The notes under the pieces: model-generated
Told to the model about the DNA's origin: nothing
Seen by the model: only the letters and a program-made list of their open reading frames with translations
Database searches by the model: none
Made by a program: the position numbers and the translations under genes
Shown: in pieces, positions 1-6,891 of the stretch
Numbering within the stretch: position 1 is the stretch's first letter
Layout: every line of letters starts with the position of its first letter
Assembly: GCA_003235605.1 (NCBI GenBank)
Contig: QJVU01000088.1
Span: forward strand, 1-6,891
Direction of reading: 5' to 3'
DNA length: 6,891 nt
DNA from: Planctomycetota bacterium
GTDB taxonomy: Bacteria > Planctomycetota > UBA1135 > UBA2386

Positions 1-1
1 C

Positions 2-631
2 GGCAGCACGAACACCGCGGGGAACGGCGTCTACAACTACACCAACTCGTTCTCCTACGACCCGACCGGCAAGGACTGGGTCGTCGGCACCCGGGACGGG
101 TACATCGACCGCTGGGTGGATGGCCACAGCGCGGAGAAGGTCGTTCCCGGCGTGGGCAGCAACGCCACGCCTACCGCGAACAGCGTCAACGGCAGCCACT
201 ACTTCCCGGTGTCCAAGAACCACGACCAGACCATCGGCGCCGGCTGCCCCGGCCAGGGCTTCACCCCCACGGACGTCTCCCTGGGTGCTGCCGTGTCCCC
301 CAACCCCAACTTCAAGTTTGCCTTGTTCAGCGGCAACGGCGGAGCCAAGTACCTGCTGGCCCTGGGCATCCAGAACAAGGTCTCCGGCGGCCAGACCCTG
401 CCGTGGCGGCTCCCGGGGACCCAGTGCTTCCTGCGCATGGATCCCCTGGTGATCCTGGCGGCCGGCAACCTCGGTGGGACTGGCGCCGGGTTGGGCACTG
501 CCGTGGTCCCGGTGCCGATTCCATCCAACGTTCCCACGGGCGTGACCCTCTACCGGCAGTGGGCCATGGACCTGGGGACGACACCGGCCGCCTTCGTGCT
601 CTCGAACGCCCGGGAGATCAAGTTCCAGTAG
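2..631 (+). CDS. Secreted protein of unknown function, C-terminal part (5' end outside window)
   Basis: The frame is open from the first complete codon at base 2 to TAG at 629-631, giving 209 residues, so the start lies upstream of the window. The first ~75 residues are rich in Gly, Asn, Thr and Tyr and include WVVGTRDGYIDRW, which resembles a blade of a beta-propeller or a similar extracellular repeat. From about residue 79 a distinct domain begins with GAGCPG. It runs through a CFLRMDP segment and a PVPIPSNVPTGVTLYRQWAM stretch to the end AFVLSNAREIKFQ. From memory of family style, this is the conserved C-terminal beta-rich module found on many secreted proteins of Planctomycetota. The two cysteines, about residues 82 and 142, could form a disulfide, which would suit an exported protein. 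No catalytic motif is visible, and function cannot be assigned from this fragment. Only a 25-nt gap separates it from the next gene. Confidence 0.8.
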   Translation, partial: GSTNTAGNGVYNYTNSFSYDPTGKDWVVGTRDGYIDRWVDGHSAEKVVPGVGSNATPTANSVNGSHYFPVSKNHDQTIGAGCPGQGFTPTDVSLGAAVSPNPNFKFALFSGNGGAKYLLALGIQNKVSGGQTLPWRLPGTQCFLRMDPLVILAAGNLGGTGAGLGTAVVPVPIPSNVPTGVTLYRQWAMDLGTTPAAFVLSNAREIKFQ

Positions 632-656
632 GCGCCATCCGCTACCCTGGCCAGCC

Positions 657-1406
657 GTGGTTCTCGTCACCAAGACCATGAGCCCCGGCTGGCTCTCGAA
701 CACCTACCTGGTCGTGGACCGGCCGGGAGGGCATGGTGTGCTCATCGACACCGGCGGGCCCGCGGCTCCGATCCTCGAGAGGATCCACGAGCTGGGCGTC
801 ACCATCACCCATGTCCTCTGCACCCACCATCACCAGGACCACGTCGCCTTCAACGGCCTCTACAAGGACCGCTTGGGCTGTCCTGTCTGCGGACACCACC
901 GGGAGAGCGCCCTGTTCGGGGATCTGGATCAGGAGCTTCAGGACGGCCAGGAAGTCGAGAGCGGTGACCTGCACATCCGGGCCCTCCACATTCCCGGCCA
1001 CACCCTGGGTCAGTTGGCGTTCCTGGTGAACGAGGACCGGGTATTCACCGGAGACACCTTGTTCCGGGGCAGCGTCGGCGGAACTCGGGGTCCTGGCCAC
1101 ACCAGCTTCGAGGATCTGCGTCGCTCGATCATGGAGGTGCTGATGCACCTGCCGGAGCACGTCATCGTCCACCCCGGGCACACCGACCCCAGCAGCATCG
1201 GCAGGGAGTGGTCCCAGAACCCGTTCATCCGCGCCTGGCGCGGCCTGGACCCGAAGCTCGACGCGGACTGCGTGGCCATGGGACGCCCGGCCACCCTCCT
1301 GGTGCGGGCCCGGGACTACGACGGCGGTAGCAAGTGCTGGGTCCGGTTTGCCGACGGCGGCGAGGAGGCCGTGGTTCCCGGCTCCCGTGTGCAGCTCCGG
1401 AGCTGA
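657..1406 (+). CDS. MBL-fold metallo-hydrolase (glyoxalase II-like) with extra C-terminal domain
   Basis: This 249-residue protein has the full metal-ligand set of the metallo-beta-lactamase superfamily. THHHQDH at residues 56-62 supplies H57, H59, D61 and H62 (HxHxDH). The other ligands are H115 in HIPGHTLGQ, D133 in FTGDTLF and H175 in VHPGHT. The IDTGG at 30-34 and the GHT and GDTLF motifs favour the glyoxalase II-like hydrolase branch, which typically hydrolyses thioesters or related esters at a dinuclear zinc or iron site. The substrate cannot be told from sequence. The catalytic fold ends near residue 195. Residues ~205-249 form a small beta-rich domain that could be SH3- or Tudor-like, which is my inference. 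No signal peptide is seen, so it is probably cytoplasmic. The start is uncertain: GTG at 657 keeps the first beta strand, while ATG at 678 is a seven-residue shorter alternative. Neither has a convincing Shine-Dalgarno. It sits 5 nt upstream of the dehydrogenase gene, so the two are probably co-transcribed. Confidence 0.88.
   Translation: MVLVTKTMSPGWLSNTYLVVDRPGGHGVLIDTGGPAAPILERIHELGVTITHVLCTHHHQDHVAFNGLYKDRLGCPVCGHHRESALFGDLDQELQDGQEVESGDLHIRALHIPGHTLGQLAFLVNEDRVFTGDTLFRGSVGGTRGPGHTSFEDLRRSIMEVLMHLPEHVIVHPGHTDPSSIGREWSQNPFIRAWRGLDPKLDADCVAMGRPATLLVRARDYDGGSKCWVRFADGGEEAVVPGSRVQLRS
1399..1402 (+). promoter_or_regulatory. Ribosome binding site for the dehydrogenase gene
   Basis: GGAG lies 9 nt before ATG 1412 and overlaps the last codons of the hydrolase gene, whose TGA is at 1404-1406. 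This site is the main reason for choosing ATG 1412 over the upstream in-frame start at 1334. GGAG can pair with CTCC at 1408-1411 in a weak 4-bp hairpin with the stop codon in its loop. Ribosomes finishing the upstream gene would open that hairpin, so the two genes may be translationally coupled (inference). Confidence 0.6.
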
Positions 1407-1411
1407 TCTCC

Positions 1412-2365
1412 ATGCGTGGTCTCTACCTGAAGCAGGGTCGCCTCTCCTACCGCGAGGATCTCCCCGAGCCGACAGGGGAGGTGGTGGTCGAGCCCCTTCG
1501 GGCGGGCATCTGTGCCACCGACATCGCCCTCTTCCGGGGCTACATGGACTTCGAGGGTGTTCCCGGCCACGAGTTCGTCGGTGTTGCCACCTCCGGCCGG
1601 TACGCGGGCCGCCGGGTCGTGGGGGACATCAACGCCGCCTGCGGCCGTCCCCAATGCCGCGAGTGTGCCCGGGACAACGGTCACCACTGCCCCAACCGCA
1701 CCGTGCTGGGGATCCTGGGACACAGTGGCGCCTTTGCGGAACGCCTGGCCCTGCCGGATCGCAACCTGCTCCCCGTGCCGGATGGGGTTTCCACGGACGC
1801 TGCCACCTTCACCGAGCCGCTGGCGGCGGCCCTGGAGATCGTCGAACAGGTCGCGGTGGAACCGGGGACTTCCGCCCTGGTGGCGGGGGACGGCAAGCTG
1901 GGTCTCCTCTGTGCCCACGTCCTGCACCTTCAGGGTCTGCGGGTGACGGTTGCCGGGCGCCACCCGGAGCGCCAGGACCTCCTGCCCGGGGGTGTGGAAC
2001 ACCGGGTGGGCATGCTGGAGGGAAAGGGGCGGGTGGACGCGGTCTTCGACCTTGCCGTGGAGGCTACGGGCCACGCGGATGTCCTGGGGCAGCTGGTCCC
2101 CCTGGTCCGGCCCCGGGGCACTCTGGTTCTCAAGACCACCACCGAAGCGCCGGCCACGGTCGATCTCAGCCTCGTGGTGGTGAACGAGCTGTGCGTCCTG
2201 GGCTCCCGCTGCGGGCCGATGCAGAAGGCCCTGGACCTGCTGGCAAGGGGCCAGGTACCGGTGGAGAAGTGGATCTGCGGGCGATTCCCCCTCGCCGAGG
2301 GGGCACACGCTTTTTCCCGGGCGCAACAGCCTGGGACACTCAAGGTACTGCTGTCCCACCGGTGA
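1412..2365 (+). CDS. Zinc-dependent medium-chain alcohol dehydrogenase (MDR superfamily)
   Basis: The product has 317 residues and the two-domain layout of zinc MDR dehydrogenases, which oxidise alcohols or polyols with NAD(P). The N-terminal GroES-like domain has C34 in GICATD and H53-E54 in PGHE, the usual catalytic zinc site. C77, C82, C85 and C93 form a probable structural zinc lobe, although the first gap is four residues instead of the common two. The Rossmann domain has GDGKLG at 159-164 as the GxGxxG fingerprint. The end of the second strand reads AGRHPE, with no acidic residue, so NADP use is possible. The HCPNRTVLGILG and AFAERLALP segments match my memory of a divergent MDR subgroup of unknown substrate. 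At 317 residues it is shorter than classical ~350-residue enzymes. It follows the hydrolase by 5 nt, which suggests a common pathway, perhaps aldehyde or alcohol metabolism, but this is only an inference from position. Confidence 0.88.
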   Translation: MRGLYLKQGRLSYREDLPEPTGEVVVEPLRAGICATDIALFRGYMDFEGVPGHEFVGVATSGRYAGRRVVGDINAACGRPQCRECARDNGHHCPNRTVLGILGHSGAFAERLALPDRNLLPVPDGVSTDAATFTEPLAAALEIVEQVAVEPGTSALVAGDGKLGLLCAHVLHLQGLRVTVAGRHPERQDLLPGGVEHRVGMLEGKGRVDAVFDLAVEATGHADVLGQLVPLVRPRGTLVLKTTTEAPATVDLSLVVVNELCVLGSRCGPMQKALDLLARGQVPVEKWICGRFPLAEGAHAFSRAQQPGTLKVLLSHR

Positions 2366-2372
2366 GCGACCG

Positions 2373-2378
2373 TATACT
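2373..2378 (+). promoter_or_regulatory. Candidate -10 promoter element for a leaderless selenoprotein transcript
   Basis: TATACT, a good match to the sigma-70 -10 consensus TATAAT, stands out in this GC-rich sequence between the dehydrogenase stop and ATG 2386. It ends 7 nt before the ATG, so transcription from it would start at or next to the A of the start codon and give a leaderless mRNA. No Shine-Dalgarno is present in the 20 bases before the ATG, which fits. The -35 region at 17-bp spacing (2350-2355) reads GCTGTC and is weak. Confidence 0.35.
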
Positions 2379-2385
2379 TCGCGCC

Positions 2386-3378
2386 ATGGATATCAGGAAG
2401 GTCATTCCCCTTGCGGGGTTCGGTCTCATGCTGGTCGCGGGGACGCTGCCCGCGCAACTCAGCGAAGGTGAGAAGGCGCCGGAGTTCGAGATCAAGGAGG
2501 CCCTCAACCGGGCTCCCGACAACTTCAAGGAGCTCCGCGGCAAGGTCTTGATGTTGGACTTCTTCGCCACCTGGTGAGGCCCCTGCAAGGCCGCCGTCCC
2601 GCATCTGAACGCGCTTCACGAGAAGTACGCAGACAAGGGGCTGGCGATCGTTGGCGTGTCCAACGAGGACAAGGGCAAGCTGGAAGGCTACGTCGAGAAG
2701 CTGGAGGTCCGGTATCCGATCGTGAGCGCGCCTGCGGCGGGCGAGCAGTACGGAGTCAAGGGCTATCCCACGTACTACCTGGTATCGGCCAAGGGCCAGG
2801 TGCTGGCGGGCCCTCAGCACGGCAAGTTCAGCGATGACCAGATCGAGAAGGCCCTCAAGGACGTCATGTTGTTCCCCGACGTTCCGGACAAGGGCGCGTT
2901 CAAGGCCATCAAGAAGAGCTGGAAGAAGCGCAACTTCCTGGAGGTGTCCAGGAACCTGACCAAGGTGCTCCAGGACGAGACGGCTGCCGCCGAGGACAAG
3001 GCCGCTGCCGAGAGCATCAAGAAGGCCCTGGACGGCCGGATCGAGGACGCCCTCGCCACCGTCAAGAAGGCCAAGGCCGGGCCCGACTACTGCGCCGTGG
3101 AGGAGGACCTGAAGACCATCGTCAAGGACTTCAAGGGCATGCCGGTGGAGGCCGAGGCGAAGGCCATGCTCGACGACTTCAAGAGGGATGACAAGATCAA
3201 GAAGGAGATCAGCGCTGGCAAGAAGCTCACCTCGCTGCGCAAGCGCTACGACCCCAACAAGCGGGGAGACCAGAAGAAGCTGGTAGCCGCGCTGGCGTCT
3301 TTCGTGAAGAAGAACGGGGGCACCTACGCCGGCCAGAAGGCCGAGAAGATGTTGGAGTCCCTGAAGGCGGCGAAGTAG
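2386..3378 (+). CDS. Exported TlpA/thioredoxin-like selenoprotein, UGPC active site, in-frame UGA at 2575-2577
   Basis: Read through one in-frame UGA, this is a 330-residue protein ending at TAG 3376-3378. Residues 1-23 look like a signal peptide (lysine, hydrophobic core, LPA then Q), placing it outside the cytoplasmic membrane. Residues ~30-155 are a TlpA/thioredoxin-like domain: GEKAPEFEI, the strand KVLMLDFFATW, then position 64 (UGA), GPC, KAAVPHL, and the cis-proline P128 in GYPTYYL. UGA replaces the first Cys of CGPC, and the resolving C67 is intact. Selenocysteine at this position is known in other thioredoxin-like proteins. The expected role is thiol-disulfide exchange or reduction of an oxidised periplasmic partner. 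Residues ~160-330 are a Lys/Ala/Glu-rich, probably all-helical tail; GMPVEAEAKAML (251-262) and GTYAGQKAEKML (312-323) look like a repeat. Alternatives are a nonsense mutation or a sequencing error. The intact downstream frame and the exact position of the UGA argue against decay. Confidence 0.8.
2575..2577 (+). other. In-frame UGA, putative selenocysteine codon (Sec64)
   Basis: TGA lies between the codons for ATW and GPCK in the frame that starts at ATG 2386. In thioredoxin-like proteins this position is the nucleophilic cysteine of WCxxC. The same frame stays open for 266 codons afterwards. TGA is used as an ordinary stop at 1404-1406, 2363-2365 and 4444-4446, so genome-wide recoding of UGA is unlikely and local selenocysteine insertion is the simplest reading. 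Confidence 0.78.
2584..2603 (+). promoter_or_regulatory. Candidate bacterial SECIS hairpin (weak)
   Basis: Bacterial selenocysteine insertion needs a stem-loop just downstream of the UGA that SelB recognises. Here TGC 2584-2586 can pair with GCA 2601-2603. After an AA/CC internal loop, GGC 2589-2591 pairs with GTC 2596-2598 (one G-U pair). The apical loop is CGCC at 2592-2595, 15-18 nt after the UGA and near the lower end of the distance usual for bacterial SECIS. The stem is short. Competing folds are CGC 2600-2602 with GCG 2611-2613, and a stronger hairpin at 2611-2630. I cannot tell which, if any, is the functional element. Confidence 0.3.
2611..2630 (+). promoter_or_regulatory. Alternative SECIS-like hairpin downstream of the UGA
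   Basis: GCG 2611-2613 plus CTTC 2614-2617 pair with GAAG 2622-2625 and CGC 2628-2630, leaving a two-base UA bulge on the 3' side and an ACGA tetraloop at 2618-2621. Seven base pairs make this the most stable small hairpin I found just after the UGA. The loop lies 41-44 nt from the UGA, slightly farther than is usual for bacterial SECIS, so it is offered only as an alternative. The same bases encode ALHEKYA, a thioredoxin-fold helix. Confidence 0.25.
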
Positions 3379-3396
3379 AGCCCGAAGCAGCCCACA

Positions 3397-3420
3397 CGCC
3401 CCCCTGATTCCAGGGGGGCG
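3397..3420 (+). terminator. Perfect GC-rich hairpin, probable transcription terminator
   Basis: Two perfectly complementary 10-base arms (3397-3406 and 3411-3420) flank an ATTC tetraloop, 18 nt after the stop of the selenoprotein gene. The stem is nearly all G-C and lies in the only clear intergenic space of the window (3379-3456). No T-run follows (the next bases are ATTGCATCC), so it is not a textbook intrinsic terminator. It may instead end transcription without a U-tract or protect the 3' end of the mRNA. Confidence 0.65.
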
Positions 3421-3456
3421 ATTGCATCCTGTGCCAAGGTCCGGTTGATTGGGGGC

Positions 3457-4446
3457 ATGGATCCCTTCCGCGCCTGTCTCCGGAGTGTGTTGCTCGGGAT
3501 CGTGCTTGCCGGGCCCCTCTGGGCCCAGGTCCAGGGCTCCGAGGAGGTGCCTGCCTCCCGGCCATTCGATTCCGGCCTTGCCGACAAGGCTCCGGAGCCC
3601 CTGTCCGGGCCGCCGATCGTCAGCGCCAAGGCCTGGGCCATCGCCGACGCCAGGACCGGCAAGGTGTTGTTCGGTAACCACCAGGATGCCCAGCTTCCCA
3701 TGGCCAGCACCACCAAGCTCATGACCGCGTGGCTGGTGGCGCGGCTGGCAAAACAGGATCCGGAGGTCCTCGACGAGGTGGTCACGTTCTCTGCCTTCGC
3801 AGACGCTACCGGCGGCTCCTCGGCGACGATCCGCGCCGGCGAGCGGCTGCCGGTGCGGGAGCTCCTCTACGGCCTGTTGCTGCCGTCGGGCAACGACGCC
3901 GCCAACGCCCTGGCAGAGCACTTCGGTGACCGCTTTCCGCAGCCCCCCAAGGAGATGACGTGGCCGGTTACCACGCGGCCGGGGCCGAGGCCCGCGTCCT
4001 GGTATCGATTCGTTGCCGAGATGAACCGTGCCGCAGAGACCATGGGGATGAAGAACACCCGCTACTGGAATCCCCATGGCCTCGATTGCACCGGGCACCA
4101 CAGCACCGCCGCTGACCTGTTGATCCTCGCACGGCACTTCATGGAGAGCCCGTTGTTGCGCGTCTACGTTGCCACTCGCAGCCACCGGGTGACGCTTGTC
4201 GCGGGCAATGGCAGCAGCCGCCAAGTGACCTGGCGCAACACCAACCAGCTGCTGGAGATCCAGGGCTATGACGGGATCAAGACCGGCACCACCAGCCGGG
4301 CAGGGGCATGCCTGGTGTCCAGCGCCACGCGCAAGCAGGATCACCTGCTGATGGTGGTCCTGGGCAGTTCGTCCAGCCTCGGCCGCTACGTGGACTCCCG
4401 CAACCTCTACCGCTGGGCGTTCTGCGAGCTCGGCCATCAGGACTGA
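3457..4446 (+). CDS. D-alanyl-D-alanine carboxypeptidase, peptidase family S11 (penicillin-binding protein)
   Basis: This 329-residue protein removes the terminal D-Ala from peptidoglycan pentapeptides outside the cytoplasmic membrane and so limits cross-linking. All three active-site motifs of family S11 are present: STTK at 84-87 with nucleophile S84 and K87, SGN at 144-146, and KTG at 275-277 in GIKTGTTSRAG. Residues 1-23 form a signal peptide with probable cleavage after LWA. A proline-rich insert lies at about 161-182. The protein stops about 50 residues after KTG, so the C-terminal beta domain and amphipathic membrane anchor of DacA/PBP5 (around 400 residues) are absent. It should be soluble in the periplasm or tethered another way. 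ATG 3457 is chosen because it starts the signal peptide. TTG 3445 is in frame, with AAGG 6 nt upstream, and would add four residues. The gene follows the hairpin at 3397-3420, so it probably has its own promoter, though none is obvious. Confidence 0.92.
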   Translation: MDPFRACLRSVLLGIVLAGPLWAQVQGSEEVPASRPFDSGLADKAPEPLSGPPIVSAKAWAIADARTGKVLFGNHQDAQLPMASTTKLMTAWLVARLAKQDPEVLDEVVTFSAFADATGGSSATIRAGERLPVRELLYGLLLPSGNDAANALAEHFGDRFPQPPKEMTWPVTTRPGPRPASWYRFVAEMNRAAETMGMKNTRYWNPHGLDCTGHHSTAADLLILARHFMESPLLRVYVATRSHRVTLVAGNGSSRQVTWRNTNQLLEIQGYDGIKTGTTSRAGACLVSSATRKQDHLLMVVLGSSSSLGRYVDSRNLYRWAFCELGHQD

Positions 4447-4467
4447 CCGGTCGGCGATGGCGACCGG
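4447..4467 (+). promoter_or_regulatory. Hairpin presenting the start codon of the TMTC-like gene
   Basis: CCGGTCG (4447-4453) and CGACCGG (4461-4467) form a perfect 7-bp inverted repeat. The seven-base loop GCGATGG holds the ATG at 4457-4459. The stem begins one base after the TGA of the carboxypeptidase gene (4444-4446). A ribosome terminating there would disrupt it, so it could couple translation of the two genes. The function is inferred; only the repeat is seen. Confidence 0.45.
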
Positions 4468-6493
4468 CCTGCGGCGGGCGCATCGGCCCTGGTTGGCTGC
4501 GATCCTGCTCGGGGCACTGCTGGTCTACCTGCCCGGACTCGGCAACGACTTCGCCTACGATGCGCGGCACTATGCGATGGGCACGACCCCCGACGGCGTG
4601 CCCAACTACATGGTGACCGAGCTGCGTCCGCTCCCCGAGTACTTCAAGCGACCGATGCACTACGGGGTCTCGGAGACCGGCCGTGGCTACCGCCCGGTCA
4701 CGGTCTTGAGCTATGCGTTGATGCACAACCTGTTCAAGCCCCGCGGGTCGAGCGCGGTCCCCGGGTCCGCGGAAGCACCGGCCTGGCCCAGCCACCTCCT
4801 GGACCTTCTGCTGCACGTCCTCGCCACCTTCCTGGCCTGGCGGCTGGTGGCCCAGGTGTGTGGCGCCGGACCGCCCGCGCTCGTGGCCGCAGCGGTGTTC
4901 GGCCTCCACGCCTTGCGCAGCGACGTGGTGCTGTCCATCGTCGGCCGGGCCGAGATCCTGGCCTTCGTGTTCGGCGCCACCGGCGTGCTGCTCTACCTGC
5001 GCTCCCTGAGATTCCTGGCCATGCTCAGCCTGTTCCTGGCCTTCTGTTCCAAGGAGAGCGCAGTGGCCTGGGCGGTCTTCCTGCCGCTGCTGGTGTGGGC
5101 GCGGCATCCACGAAAGGAGGATTCGGGACCGTTCCCCTTTCGGCAAGTGGCGCTCGACTGGCTGTGGGTCTGTCTGCTGCCCCTTGTGGCCTTCCTGGCG
5201 CTGCGAGGTCTGATGCTGATGGAGCACCTGAAGGGGGAGTTCATTGTCGGCTATCGCCAGAATCCGTTGTTCCACCTCCGTGAGCAGCAAGGAAAGGTCC
5301 TCGCTACCGCGGTGATGATGCTCGGCTACGGCCTCTTCAAGGTGCTCTTCCCGTTCCAGCTGGCCTGTGACTACGGCGCCCACGTGTTCCCGATCGTGGG
5401 GCTGGGCGACTACCGCTTCCTGGTTGCTGCCCTGGTCCTGGGGGGAATCCTGGTGGGGGGGGTGCTGGTCGCAAGGCGCGCTCCGGCGCTGTTCCTGGCC
5501 GCCGGCGTGTTCCTCGGCTTCGCCTTCATCACCTCCAACATCCTGGTTCTGGCAGAGGCGAACTTCGCCGAGCGCTTCTACTACACACCGGCCCTGGGCC
5601 TGTCGTTCCTGGCCGCGTTCGTGACCGACAAGCTGCCGTCGGGCGCCGCGCGGAAGGCGGGGTTGGCCGTGCTCGCAGCCTGGCTCGCGGCCTGCGCCGT
5701 GGTCTGCGTGAAGCGCTGTCTTGCCTGGCGCGACAACCAGACCCTGTTCCAGCACGACGTCCTGGCGCAGCCGAGATCCGTAAGCATCCGGATGTACCTG
5801 TCCGGCTTTGCCCGCAGGCGCGGGGACATGCAGGAGTGGCGGCGCCACCTGGACAAGGCGCTGGAGATCGATGACAAGTCGCCGGACCCCCTCAACTCCA
5901 TGGGTGCGTGGCACATTGCCAACGGCATGCCGGCACAAGCCGTGGAGTACCTCACACGAGCGCTCAGGTCCCCGTACTACCACGACCGCACCATGGGTGG
6001 CCTCGTCTACGAGAACCTCGCCCATGCCTACCACGCCCTCGGCGACATCCCGGCAGCGGAGCGGGCCCTGAGGAAGGCCCTCGAGTGCGAACCGAACCGT
6101 TTCGCCGCCATGCGCATGCTCCTGGAGCTGGCCGTCTCTCGCGGCGACCGCAAGCTGCTGGAAGAGCGTCTGGAGTTCGCCCGCCAACGGTTTCCGGAAC
6201 CGAGCCCGGTCCTGGACCTGTATGCGGGACTGTCGGCCTTCCTCGGTGGTGATCCCGCCACCGCCGCGCAGCTGCTGGGTCGCGCCCTGCCCGTCCTGGA
6301 CCAGGCACCGGAACACGCCGGGGGTTTCCGCGCCCTCGTCGGAGGCTGGCAGGTCCTGGCGCGTTCCCTCTTCCTTGTGGGCAGGGCTTCGGAAAGTGCC
6401 CAGATCGTGCGACGCTTCCTGGCCATGCCCGACCTGGCCGACCCGCAACGGCAGATGTTCCTCCGACTGGCCCAGGATCTGGAACGTCGATAG
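4457..6493 (+). CDS. TMTC-like membrane glycosyltransferase (GT-C fold) with C-terminal TPRs
   Basis: The product has 678 residues. The N-terminal ~420 residues hold roughly 10-12 hydrophobic segments, beginning at about 13-27. The C-terminal ~235 residues are soluble and carry about six TPR-like units, the clearest at 478-508 (AVEYLTRAL) and 515-547 (ENLAHAYHALGD). The order resembles TMTC proteins, which are GT-C O-mannosyltransferases using lipid-linked sugars. Matching segments are the first extracytoplasmic loop with NDFAYD (30-35), GRGYRPVTVLSYALMH, the HLLDLLLHVLATFLAWRL helix, GLHALRSDVVLSIVGRAEIL, SKESAV (198-203) and AERFYYTPALG. The likely role is sugar transfer to a protein on the outer face of the cytoplasmic membrane; substrate and donor are unknown. 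The loop reads YDAR where the downstream paralogue has YDDR, so the second of two acidic residues is missing. It starts 10 nt after the carboxypeptidase gene with no strong Shine-Dalgarno. Confidence 0.8.
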   Translation: MATGLRRAHRPWLAAILLGALLVYLPGLGNDFAYDARHYAMGTTPDGVPNYMVTELRPLPEYFKRPMHYGVSETGRGYRPVTVLSYALMHNLFKPRGSSAVPGSAEAPAWPSHLLDLLLHVLATFLAWRLVAQVCGAGPPALVAAAVFGLHALRSDVVLSIVGRAEILAFVFGATGVLLYLRSLRFLAMLSLFLAFCSKESAVAWAVFLPLLVWARHPRKEDSGPFPFRQVALDWLWVCLLPLVAFLALRGLMLMEHLKGEFIVGYRQNPLFHLREQQGKVLATAVMMLGYGLFKVLFPFQLACDYGAHVFPIVGLGDYRFLVAALVLGGILVGGVLVARRAPALFLAAGVFLGFAFITSNILVLAEANFAERFYYTPALGLSFLAAFVTDKLPSGAARKAGLAVLAAWLAACAVVCVKRCLAWRDNQTLFQHDVLAQPRSVSIRMYLSGFARRRGDMQEWRRHLDKALEIDDKSPDPLNSMGAWHIANGMPAQAVEYLTRALRSPYYHDRTMGGLVYENLAHAYHALGDIPAAERALRKALECEPNRFAAMRMLLELAVSRGDRKLLEERLEFARQRFPEPSPVLDLYAGLSAFLGGDPATAAQLLGRALPVLDQAPEHAGGFRALVGGWQVLARSLFLVGRASESAQIVRRFLAMPDLADPQRQMFLRLAQDLERR

Positions 6494-6891
6494 ATGCAAC
6501 GCTCCTGGATCTGCCTGGTCTTGGTCCTGCTGTCGACGGTCTGCGTCTACGTCCGGAGCTTCTGGAACGACTACACGTACGACGACAGGATCTTCGTCCA
6601 GGTGCCCACGGCCAATGACCTTCCCAACCCGATGGTCGCCGAGGTGGGGACGGTGACCGACTACTGGCGCACCTGGTACGGAGATGGTGCGCAAAAGACC
6701 GGCCGCGGCTACCGCCCCCTCACCGTCTACAGCCATGCACTGGCGCATTGGTGGGGCCTTGGCGGTGCCGCCTCGCAGCACGTGGTCAACGTCCTCCTCC
6801 ACTGCATGGCCACTCTGGCCGTCTACTGGCTCGTGGCACTCTTTCTGGGTCAGGGCGCTCCCGCCCTGGTGGCCGCGGCGGTGTTCGGTCT
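6494..6891 (+). CDS. TMTC-like membrane glycosyltransferase paralogue, N-terminal part (3' end outside window)
   Basis: ATG 6494 directly follows the TAG (6491-6493) of the previous gene, and the frame is open to the window end, giving 132 complete codons. The fragment is paralogous to gene 4457-6493. It has an N-terminal signal-anchor helix (about 5-20), then NDYTYDDR (25-32), GRGYRPLTVYSHALAH, a VVNVLLHCMATLAVYWLV membrane helix and APALVAAAVFGL, each aligning in order with the upstream protein. The YDDR loop keeps both aspartates expected in the first extracytoplasmic loop of GT-C enzymes, so this copy may be the more canonical one. A weak GGAACG lies about 7 nt upstream, inside the preceding gene. 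The abutting stop and start suggest translational coupling in an operon. The rest of the protein, including any TPRs, is not visible. Confidence 0.82.
   Translation, partial: MQRSWICLVLVLLSTVCVYVRSFWNDYTYDDRIFVQVPTANDLPNPMVAEVGTVTDYWRTWYGDGAQKTGRGYRPLTVYSHALAHWWGLGGAASQHVVNVLLHCMATLAVYWLVALFLGQGAPALVAAAVFG

Follow-up and report, generated by a model that had tools for sequence, protein, structure and literature searches.

The 6,891-nucleotide stretch of DNA analyzed here (referred to as the window) comes from a Planctomycetota bacterium (assembly GCA_003235605.1, contig QJVU01000088.1, positions 1 to 6,891) and contains a putative selenoprotein gene on its forward strand, at positions 2386-3378, coding for 330 residues and ending in the stop codon TAG (3376-3378). 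The frame is broken by a single TGA (2575-2577) located between the codons for ATW and GPCK, and it then remains open for 266 codons up to the TAG. Read as selenocysteine (Sec), this codon would give residue 64 of the protein within a W-U-G-P-C motif, at the position of the first cysteine of the thioredoxin CxxC. The original prediction, made from the sequence of the window, had described one frame from 2386 to 3378 broken by this TGA, and frame analysis agreed with it. It had also anticipated that the downstream half of the gene would be miscalled from GTG 2656. Protein searches retrieved such an open reading frame: P0002, a predicted protein of 240 amino acids on the same contig (2656-3378, forward strand), begins exactly at that GTG, which lies inside the loop of a distal RNA hairpin described below. 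The seven best protein clusters (P0002-P0008) contained proteins of 240-245 residues with starts behind the TGA point (window residues 86-91), and the six of them other than P0002 (P0003-P0008) showed 60-80% identity to the window protein. Such short starts are the output expected from a gene caller if the same TGA is present in those genes. Homologues recorded as a whole protein with CGPC (P0009 to P0015) were more distant, with at most 40% identity for the best full one; the exception was P0010, with 47% identity over one third of its length.

The read-through product showed the features of a thioredoxin-fold protein: the fold itself, the redox motif UGPC, and a conserved proline were found by Pfam comparison, alignment, structural modeling, and structure searches. 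Residues 1 to approximately 24 (2386-2457) probably constitute a signal peptide, read by eye from a charged start, a hydrophobic core, and an LPAQ motif, and the protein is accordingly predicted to be exported. They are followed by a ResA/TlpA-like thioredoxin domain (2458-2865) supported by Pfam matches to AhpC-TSA (5.2e-18, residues 28-139), Redoxin, and Thioredoxin, all spanning the TGA, by a PDB profile search (best match 4nmu, ResA, 3.9e-33), and by Foldseek (best match 3gl3, DsbE, with several ResA proteins among the top rows). The second redox residue of the UxxC motif is Cys 67 (2584-2586). Pro 128 of the sequence GYPTYY (2767-2769) did not vary among the 54 sequences in alignment A2, and we take it from its position to be the cis-Pro of the thioredoxin fold. 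An AlphaFold2 model, built with 54 sequences and with Cys substituted for Sec, had a mean predicted local distance difference test (pLDDT) score of 91.6, with a confidence of about 50 over residues 1-20. In this model, eight helices extending from residue 171 to residue 329 form an all-helical C-terminal domain of approximately 160 residues (2896-3375), which had no Pfam match at an E value of 0.001.

The codon corresponding to residue 64 was compared among 137 members of the family. It was TGA in 112 of them (window included), a Cys codon in 21, and a codon for another residue in four, a proportion that does not represent prevalence, because 60 of the loci were picked on account of their match holding a TGA. 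Neither TAA nor TAG occurred at this site in any of the 137 members. The pattern used to recognize bacterial selenoproteins, an in-frame UGA where homologues carry Cys, was thus found at the residue where the original prediction had called for homologues with Cys or Sec. Cys 67 was present in all 112 TGA members, within GPC in 109 and within TPC, PPC, and APC in one each. The members were gathered in several ways. Scanning genome contigs produced nine loci. The top one (L001, from Planctomycetota metagenome-assembled genome casp15-mb.161) was 41% identical over residues 3-319 and had its TGA at the corresponding codon. Of 392 genomes searched in the phylum, 383 gave a match, and the best 30 loci returned (29-41% identity) had TGA at the residue-64 column in 26 cases, TGC in three, and TTG in one. 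In the class, 154 genomes were searched and 63 matched at 1e-30, yielding 26 further loci, all with TGA. Fifty-nine of the 60 matches chosen for an internal TGA carried it at the residue-64 codon, the exception being L153, with Cys at the site and a TGA at the end of the locus; the 20 matches chosen for having no internal stop had Cys (17) or another residue (3) at the site.

Disabling mutations downstream of the TGA in close relatives would have counted against a functional gene, and they were looked for in these loci. The relatives share the TGA and keep the frame open behind it: a TAA in the TGA member L084 is located seven codons upstream of the TGA, and although a TAG was flagged within the match of four loci (L050, L052, L134, and L155), these remain open for 252-266 codons beyond the TGA. 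A tree computed with the site masked (132 rows) requires at least 12 changes among the three states, which indicates repeated exchange between Sec and Cys. The window falls within a supported set of 31 rows, 27 with Sec and four with other residues. Two paralogues of the selenoprotein, L190 (genome G492) and L191 (genome G503), carry Asp or His at the Sec position, and L190 directly adjoins the Sec copy in its genome; they are perhaps redox-dead partners.

Genes for Sec synthesis and insertion were searched for in relatives. Among the 26 genomes with the closest homologues, selD was over the cut-off in 26, selA in 24 (being present as contig-end fragments in the remaining two), selB in 22, and tRNA-Sec in 23. 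Twenty-two of the tRNA-Sec matches scored 70.8-80.1 bits and the 23rd (G494, 47.8 bits) is doubtful; the gathering cut-off for this RNA was also exceeded in five of 14 control genomes. Across the phylum, selA was over the cut-off in 239 of 392 genomes. With presence defined as an E value of at most 1e-70 (242 genomes), selA was found in 60 of the 64 genomes with a verified TGA copy vs. 182 of the 328 others (Fisher p 3.7e-10), a contrast weakened by the unverified carriers that those 328 include. The selD gene itself holds an in-frame TGA (GU[AV]AK) in all 26 relatives. Its hairpin resembling a selenocysteine insertion sequence (SECIS) begins its loop at +27 or +28 in 25 of them (positions preceded by a plus sign are nucleotides after the UGA), and the loop was CGGGC in 19 and one of CGGGC, CGGGA, CGUGA, or CGUGC in 23. 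Since selD has a standard proximal hairpin in these genomes, SelB of the relatives works with ordinary elements. By coordinates, selD adjoins selA in many of the 26 relatives (selD loci L099-L124). The TGA in 112 of 137 members, the exchange with Cys, and the enrichment of selA supported the proposal that the two halves of the frame are a single selenoprotein and, as far as sequence can tell, this is almost certainly a genuine selenoprotein gene.

A standard bacterial SECIS (bSECIS), as set out in a review (PMC13188914), has a loop of 3-9 nt, a stem of 4-16 bp, a G in the first two loop positions, and a minimum free energy (MFE) of at most -7.5; the distance from the UGA to the apical loop is 16-37 nt for most elements, and certain elements do not conform to it. 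In a search for perfect stems of at least four pairs, the window gene had no element with its loop 16-37 nt after the UGA. Folds of the window ending at 2625-2635 gave no signal (such ends cut through the spacer hairpin described next), and Rfam models matched neither the window nor five loci scanned with it. When positions 2587-2669 were folded, two adjacent hairpins were obtained (-35.3 kcal/mol, z -2.47, 4/200 shuffles as good). The first hairpin, hereafter the spacer hairpin, is 55 nt long (2592-2646, +15 to +69), has its apical loop at 2618-2621, and reached -25.4 kcal/mol (z -3.73, 0/200 shuffles as good). The second, the distal hairpin (UCGUUGG-CGUGU-CCAACGA; 2648-2666, +71 to +89), has its loop at 2655-2659 (+78 to +82) and reached -7.6 kcal/mol (z -2.59, 6/200 shuffles as good). 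In shape it is like the standard bSECIS of the review (PMC13188914), with a 5-nt loop (CGUGU), a 7-bp stem, a G at the second loop position, and an energy only just under the limit of -7.5 kcal/mol. It differs in position, as its loop is reached 78 nt after the UGA, beyond the stable 55-nt spacer hairpin; the spacing falls within 16-37 nt, at 23 nt, only with the spacer hairpin folded out. The loop letters alone prove little, because the G is dictated by the Gly-Val codons.

Both hairpins were then compared between TGA members and Cys members of the family. Relative to synonymous shuffles, which preserve the protein and the codon usage of the gene, the fold of +13..+69 had a mean z of -1.92 in TGA members, being below 0 in 98 of 112 and below -1.5 in 71 (69 in the hairpin association tests given below, where z was rounded to one decimal), vs. 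a mean z of -0.40 in Cys members, with two of 21 below -1.5 (p 4.3e-6). Along the gene, the 57-nt segment beginning at +13 was the peak in TGA members (-2.09), values from +31 on being between +0.02 and -0.56, and Cys members had no peak (-0.61 to +0.62). RNAalifold applied to +1..+75 of the 27 closest sequences recovered the spacer helices at -4.14 vs. a synonymous-null mean of -0.49 (0/100 as low), and the covariation score from pair counts in these sequences was reached by 2/500 shuffles. No consensus structure emerged when +1..+57 of 27 diverse members were folded together. Mutual information among 110 distinct members revealed no clean helix; the excess of pair probability over the null was more useful.

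The distal hairpin was also widespread. A stem of at least six pairs was present in 76 of the 112 TGA members, the null giving a mean of 25.2 and a maximum of 37 (100 shuffles), and its loop started exactly at +78 in 63 members. The spacer was folded in 62 members with the distal stem and unfolded in 14, vs. seven and 29 of those lacking the stem (p 5e-10). A proximal hairpin of at least six pairs was present in 11 members with the distal stem and absent from 65, vs. 23 and 13 of the stem-less ones (p 3e-7). In the distal stem, codons 25 and 29 downstream of the Sec codon pair with each other. Fifty-nine TGA members were eligible for a test of this pairing (those encoding Ile/Val and Asp/Asn at these sites), and in 51 of them the two codons were exact reverse complements, where codon usage predicts 14.1 and the maximum in 200,000 simulations was 30; the combinations were ATC/GAT (33), GTT/AAC (11), GTC/GAC (4), and ATT/AAT (3). 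Among Cys members, two of five eligible ones showed this complementarity and 12 of 21 were without such a site (Fisher p 0.03). Alignment A3 (63 members) was chosen for the distal stem, and its 100% pairing there is not evidence by itself; the stem counts, the codon 25/29 test, the minimum-energy layouts, and the proximal hairpins come from members unselected for that stem.

A perfect-stem scan under the standard bSECIS model found an element in 28 of the 112 TGA members. In minimum-energy folds of +10..+92, the composite of spacer and distal hairpins formed in 70 of the 112 TGA members vs. five of 21 Cys members (p 0.0015). Of the 42 TGA members that lacked the composite, 31 had a proximal hairpin and 11 had neither layout (L047, L050, L052, L054, L127, L138, L148, L149, L150, L161, and L162). 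A proximal hairpin of at least six pairs in 31 of 42 compares with a synonymous-null mean of 4.8 (maximum 10 in 60 shuffles); the corresponding counts were three in the 70 composite members (null 1.5) and one in the 21 Cys members (null 1.8). The composite and the proximal hairpin are therefore two layouts that replace each other and are tied to the TGA. A strict distal hairpin formed in 62 of 63 members and, with the upstream helix taken out, its loop was at +18 to +25 (+23 in the window). In the 30 members whose only hairpin was proximal, the loops were at +22 (10), +18 (10), +35 (6), +19 (2), +21, and +30. Genome G001 contains, besides its family member, two further thioredoxin-like paralogues with an in-frame TGA at UGPC (L022 and L024); both fold into hairpins of the proximal kind (loops GGUC and CGUGCC), in contrast to the family member there.

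Taking all this into account, we propose that the gene codes for an exported selenoprotein oxidoreductase whose UGA is recoded through a composite SECIS, a statement to which, as a whole, we assign a probability of roughly 65%. The UGA would be decoded as Sec by SelB and tRNA-Sec, in the organism of the window as in its relatives. The spacer hairpin (+15 to +69) would stay folded outside the ribosome, and the distal hairpin (+71 to +89) would thereby be presented to SelB with the effective spacing reduced to about 23 nt. The signal would then probably be a SelB-binding hairpin located some 78 nt beyond the UGA, with a spacer hairpin bringing it to the standard distance, the whole lying within coding sequence and alternating with an ordinary proximal SECIS in one family. 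It follows as part of this proposal, and with similar confidence, that the distance in the folded RNA rather than the distance along the sequence is what counts for the SECIS. The product would be a thiol-disulfide oxidoreductase containing selenium. In ResA/TlpA-type reductases, the first redox residue of the motif attacks and the second resolves; by analogy, Sec 64 would be the attacking nucleophile of the ResA/TlpA-like domain and Cys 67 the resolving residue. The role of the helical C-terminal domain is presumably to bind a partner or substrate.

Several observations weigh against this proposal. The Sec gene counts are those of relatives, not of the window organism itself, and selB was missing in four of the 26 relatives and tRNA-Sec unconvincing in four. 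No selA at 1e-70 was found in four of the 64 TGA genomes (G022, G083, G213, and G265), possibly due to incomplete assemblies. Eleven TGA members have neither layout, the five Cys members noted above also fold as the composite, a distal stem of six or more pairs occurs somewhere in the range in seven of the 21 Cys members, and the folding energy of the proximal region alone fails to separate TGA from Cys members (p 0.17). When codons 1-23 were shuffled synonymously, the composite geometry was kept in 40.4 of 63 members on average (maximum 48 in 60 shuffles; observed 62), so part of the spacer geometry stems from the amino acids. RNAalifold on the 63-member alignment recovered the distal hairpin and not the spacer, and the spacer pairs hold in 63-69% of alignment cells. 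Independent changes at two covarying pairs numbered five each on supported branches; none was opposite, and they are too few for significance.

The explanation that best survives beside it accepts the selenoprotein and discards the composite SECIS: SelB would use another or weaker structure near the UGA, such as the small hairpin (GGCC) predicted at +1..+15, and the downstream hairpins would be by-products of codon use or would serve mRNA stability or ribosome pausing. Besides that small hairpin, the failure of some bSECIS candidates under the standard model, as noted in the review (PMC13188914), and the spacer geometry retained by synonymous shuffles speak for it. However, the region +1..+42 was no more folded than the synonymous null (mean z -0.08 in TGA members), and the spacer and distal hairpins are linked to each other, to the TGA, and to the absence of a proximal hairpin; we consider this explanation unlikely, though worth keeping in mind. 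Less probable still is that the long spacer hairpin serves as the SECIS through its apical loop (+41..+44), the distal hairpin being incidental. The spacer hairpin is the strongest folding signal across the family, and its apical loop lies exactly at +41..+44 in 33 of 112 minimum-energy structures. But the distal loop CGUGU resembles the selD loops of the relatives, and reading at the apical loop leaves the complementarity of codons 25 and 29 unexplained. This candidate was the one first favored and was dropped once the distal hairpin appeared.

Reassignment of UGA to another amino acid, or plain read-through without selenium, would suit a frame that is open under any code reading TGA. It is very improbable given that Cys is the usual exchange partner and selA is enriched in TGA carriers; moreover, the open reading frames ending at 1406, 2365, and 4446 in the window use TGA as stop, and TGA is therefore not reassigned there. 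A sequencing error or a pseudogene arising from a recent TGC to TGA mutation, a difference of a single base, can be set aside in view of 111 other members with TGA at the same codon and an open frame behind it.

Comparison with known systems placed the window protein close to several families already described. The review (PMC13188914) lists UxxC thiol-disulfide isomerase-like (cd02966) and UxxC Redoxin (PF08534) selenoproteins as well as the VPGUxxT family. The window protein is like the UxxC oxidoreductases there in its thioredoxin fold, in having Sec first in UxxC, and in being predicted by computation, and its two-domain architecture could be matched to none of the families listed there; the string "planctomycet" does not occur in the review text. 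The protein matched 14 NCBIfam models, each time below the cut-off. Its residues 171-324 matched positions 194-348 of the 349 of NF041382 (VPGUxxT type 1), in the C-terminal part of that model (E 2.8e-11), but at 43.3 bits vs. a cut-off of 350, with a best stretch that lacks the redox domain, and with WUGPC instead of VPGU. It shares the ResA-like domain with NF041054 (ResA-like WAxxUGC motif protein, WAxxUGC_long), which is named after a motif with U, but it reached 37.5 bits vs. a cut-off of 300 and the motif differs. Two planctomycete isolates have been reported to possess full Sec gene sets and selenoproteins (PMC4807772), and a member of the family may already be among the supplementary candidates of that work. 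No paper describing, by title or abstract, this family or a spaced two-hairpin bacterial SECIS was found in a search that left most subscription journals outside. Within that literature, the protein is, as far as we have seen, new as a two-domain family, and the SECIS layout is probably new too.

The family is present in many Planctomycetota genomes and appears split in the closest protein clusters, and an exported redox enzyme of common environmental bacteria can thus be easily overlooked. If the composite signal is real, searches requiring a hairpin 16-37 nt after the UGA would miss such genes, and what SelB measures, whether bases along the chain or distance in space, would be testable with natural variants of the same family.

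Around the selenoprotein gene, Pfam comparison identified an MBL-fold hydrolase (657-1406), a zinc-binding dehydrogenase (1412-2365), and a D-Ala-D-Ala carboxypeptidase (3457-4446), none of which showed a functional link with it. Further downstream, two tandem frames (4457-6493 and 6494-6891) look alike by eye, the first of them containing TPR repeats (Pfam) towards its end.
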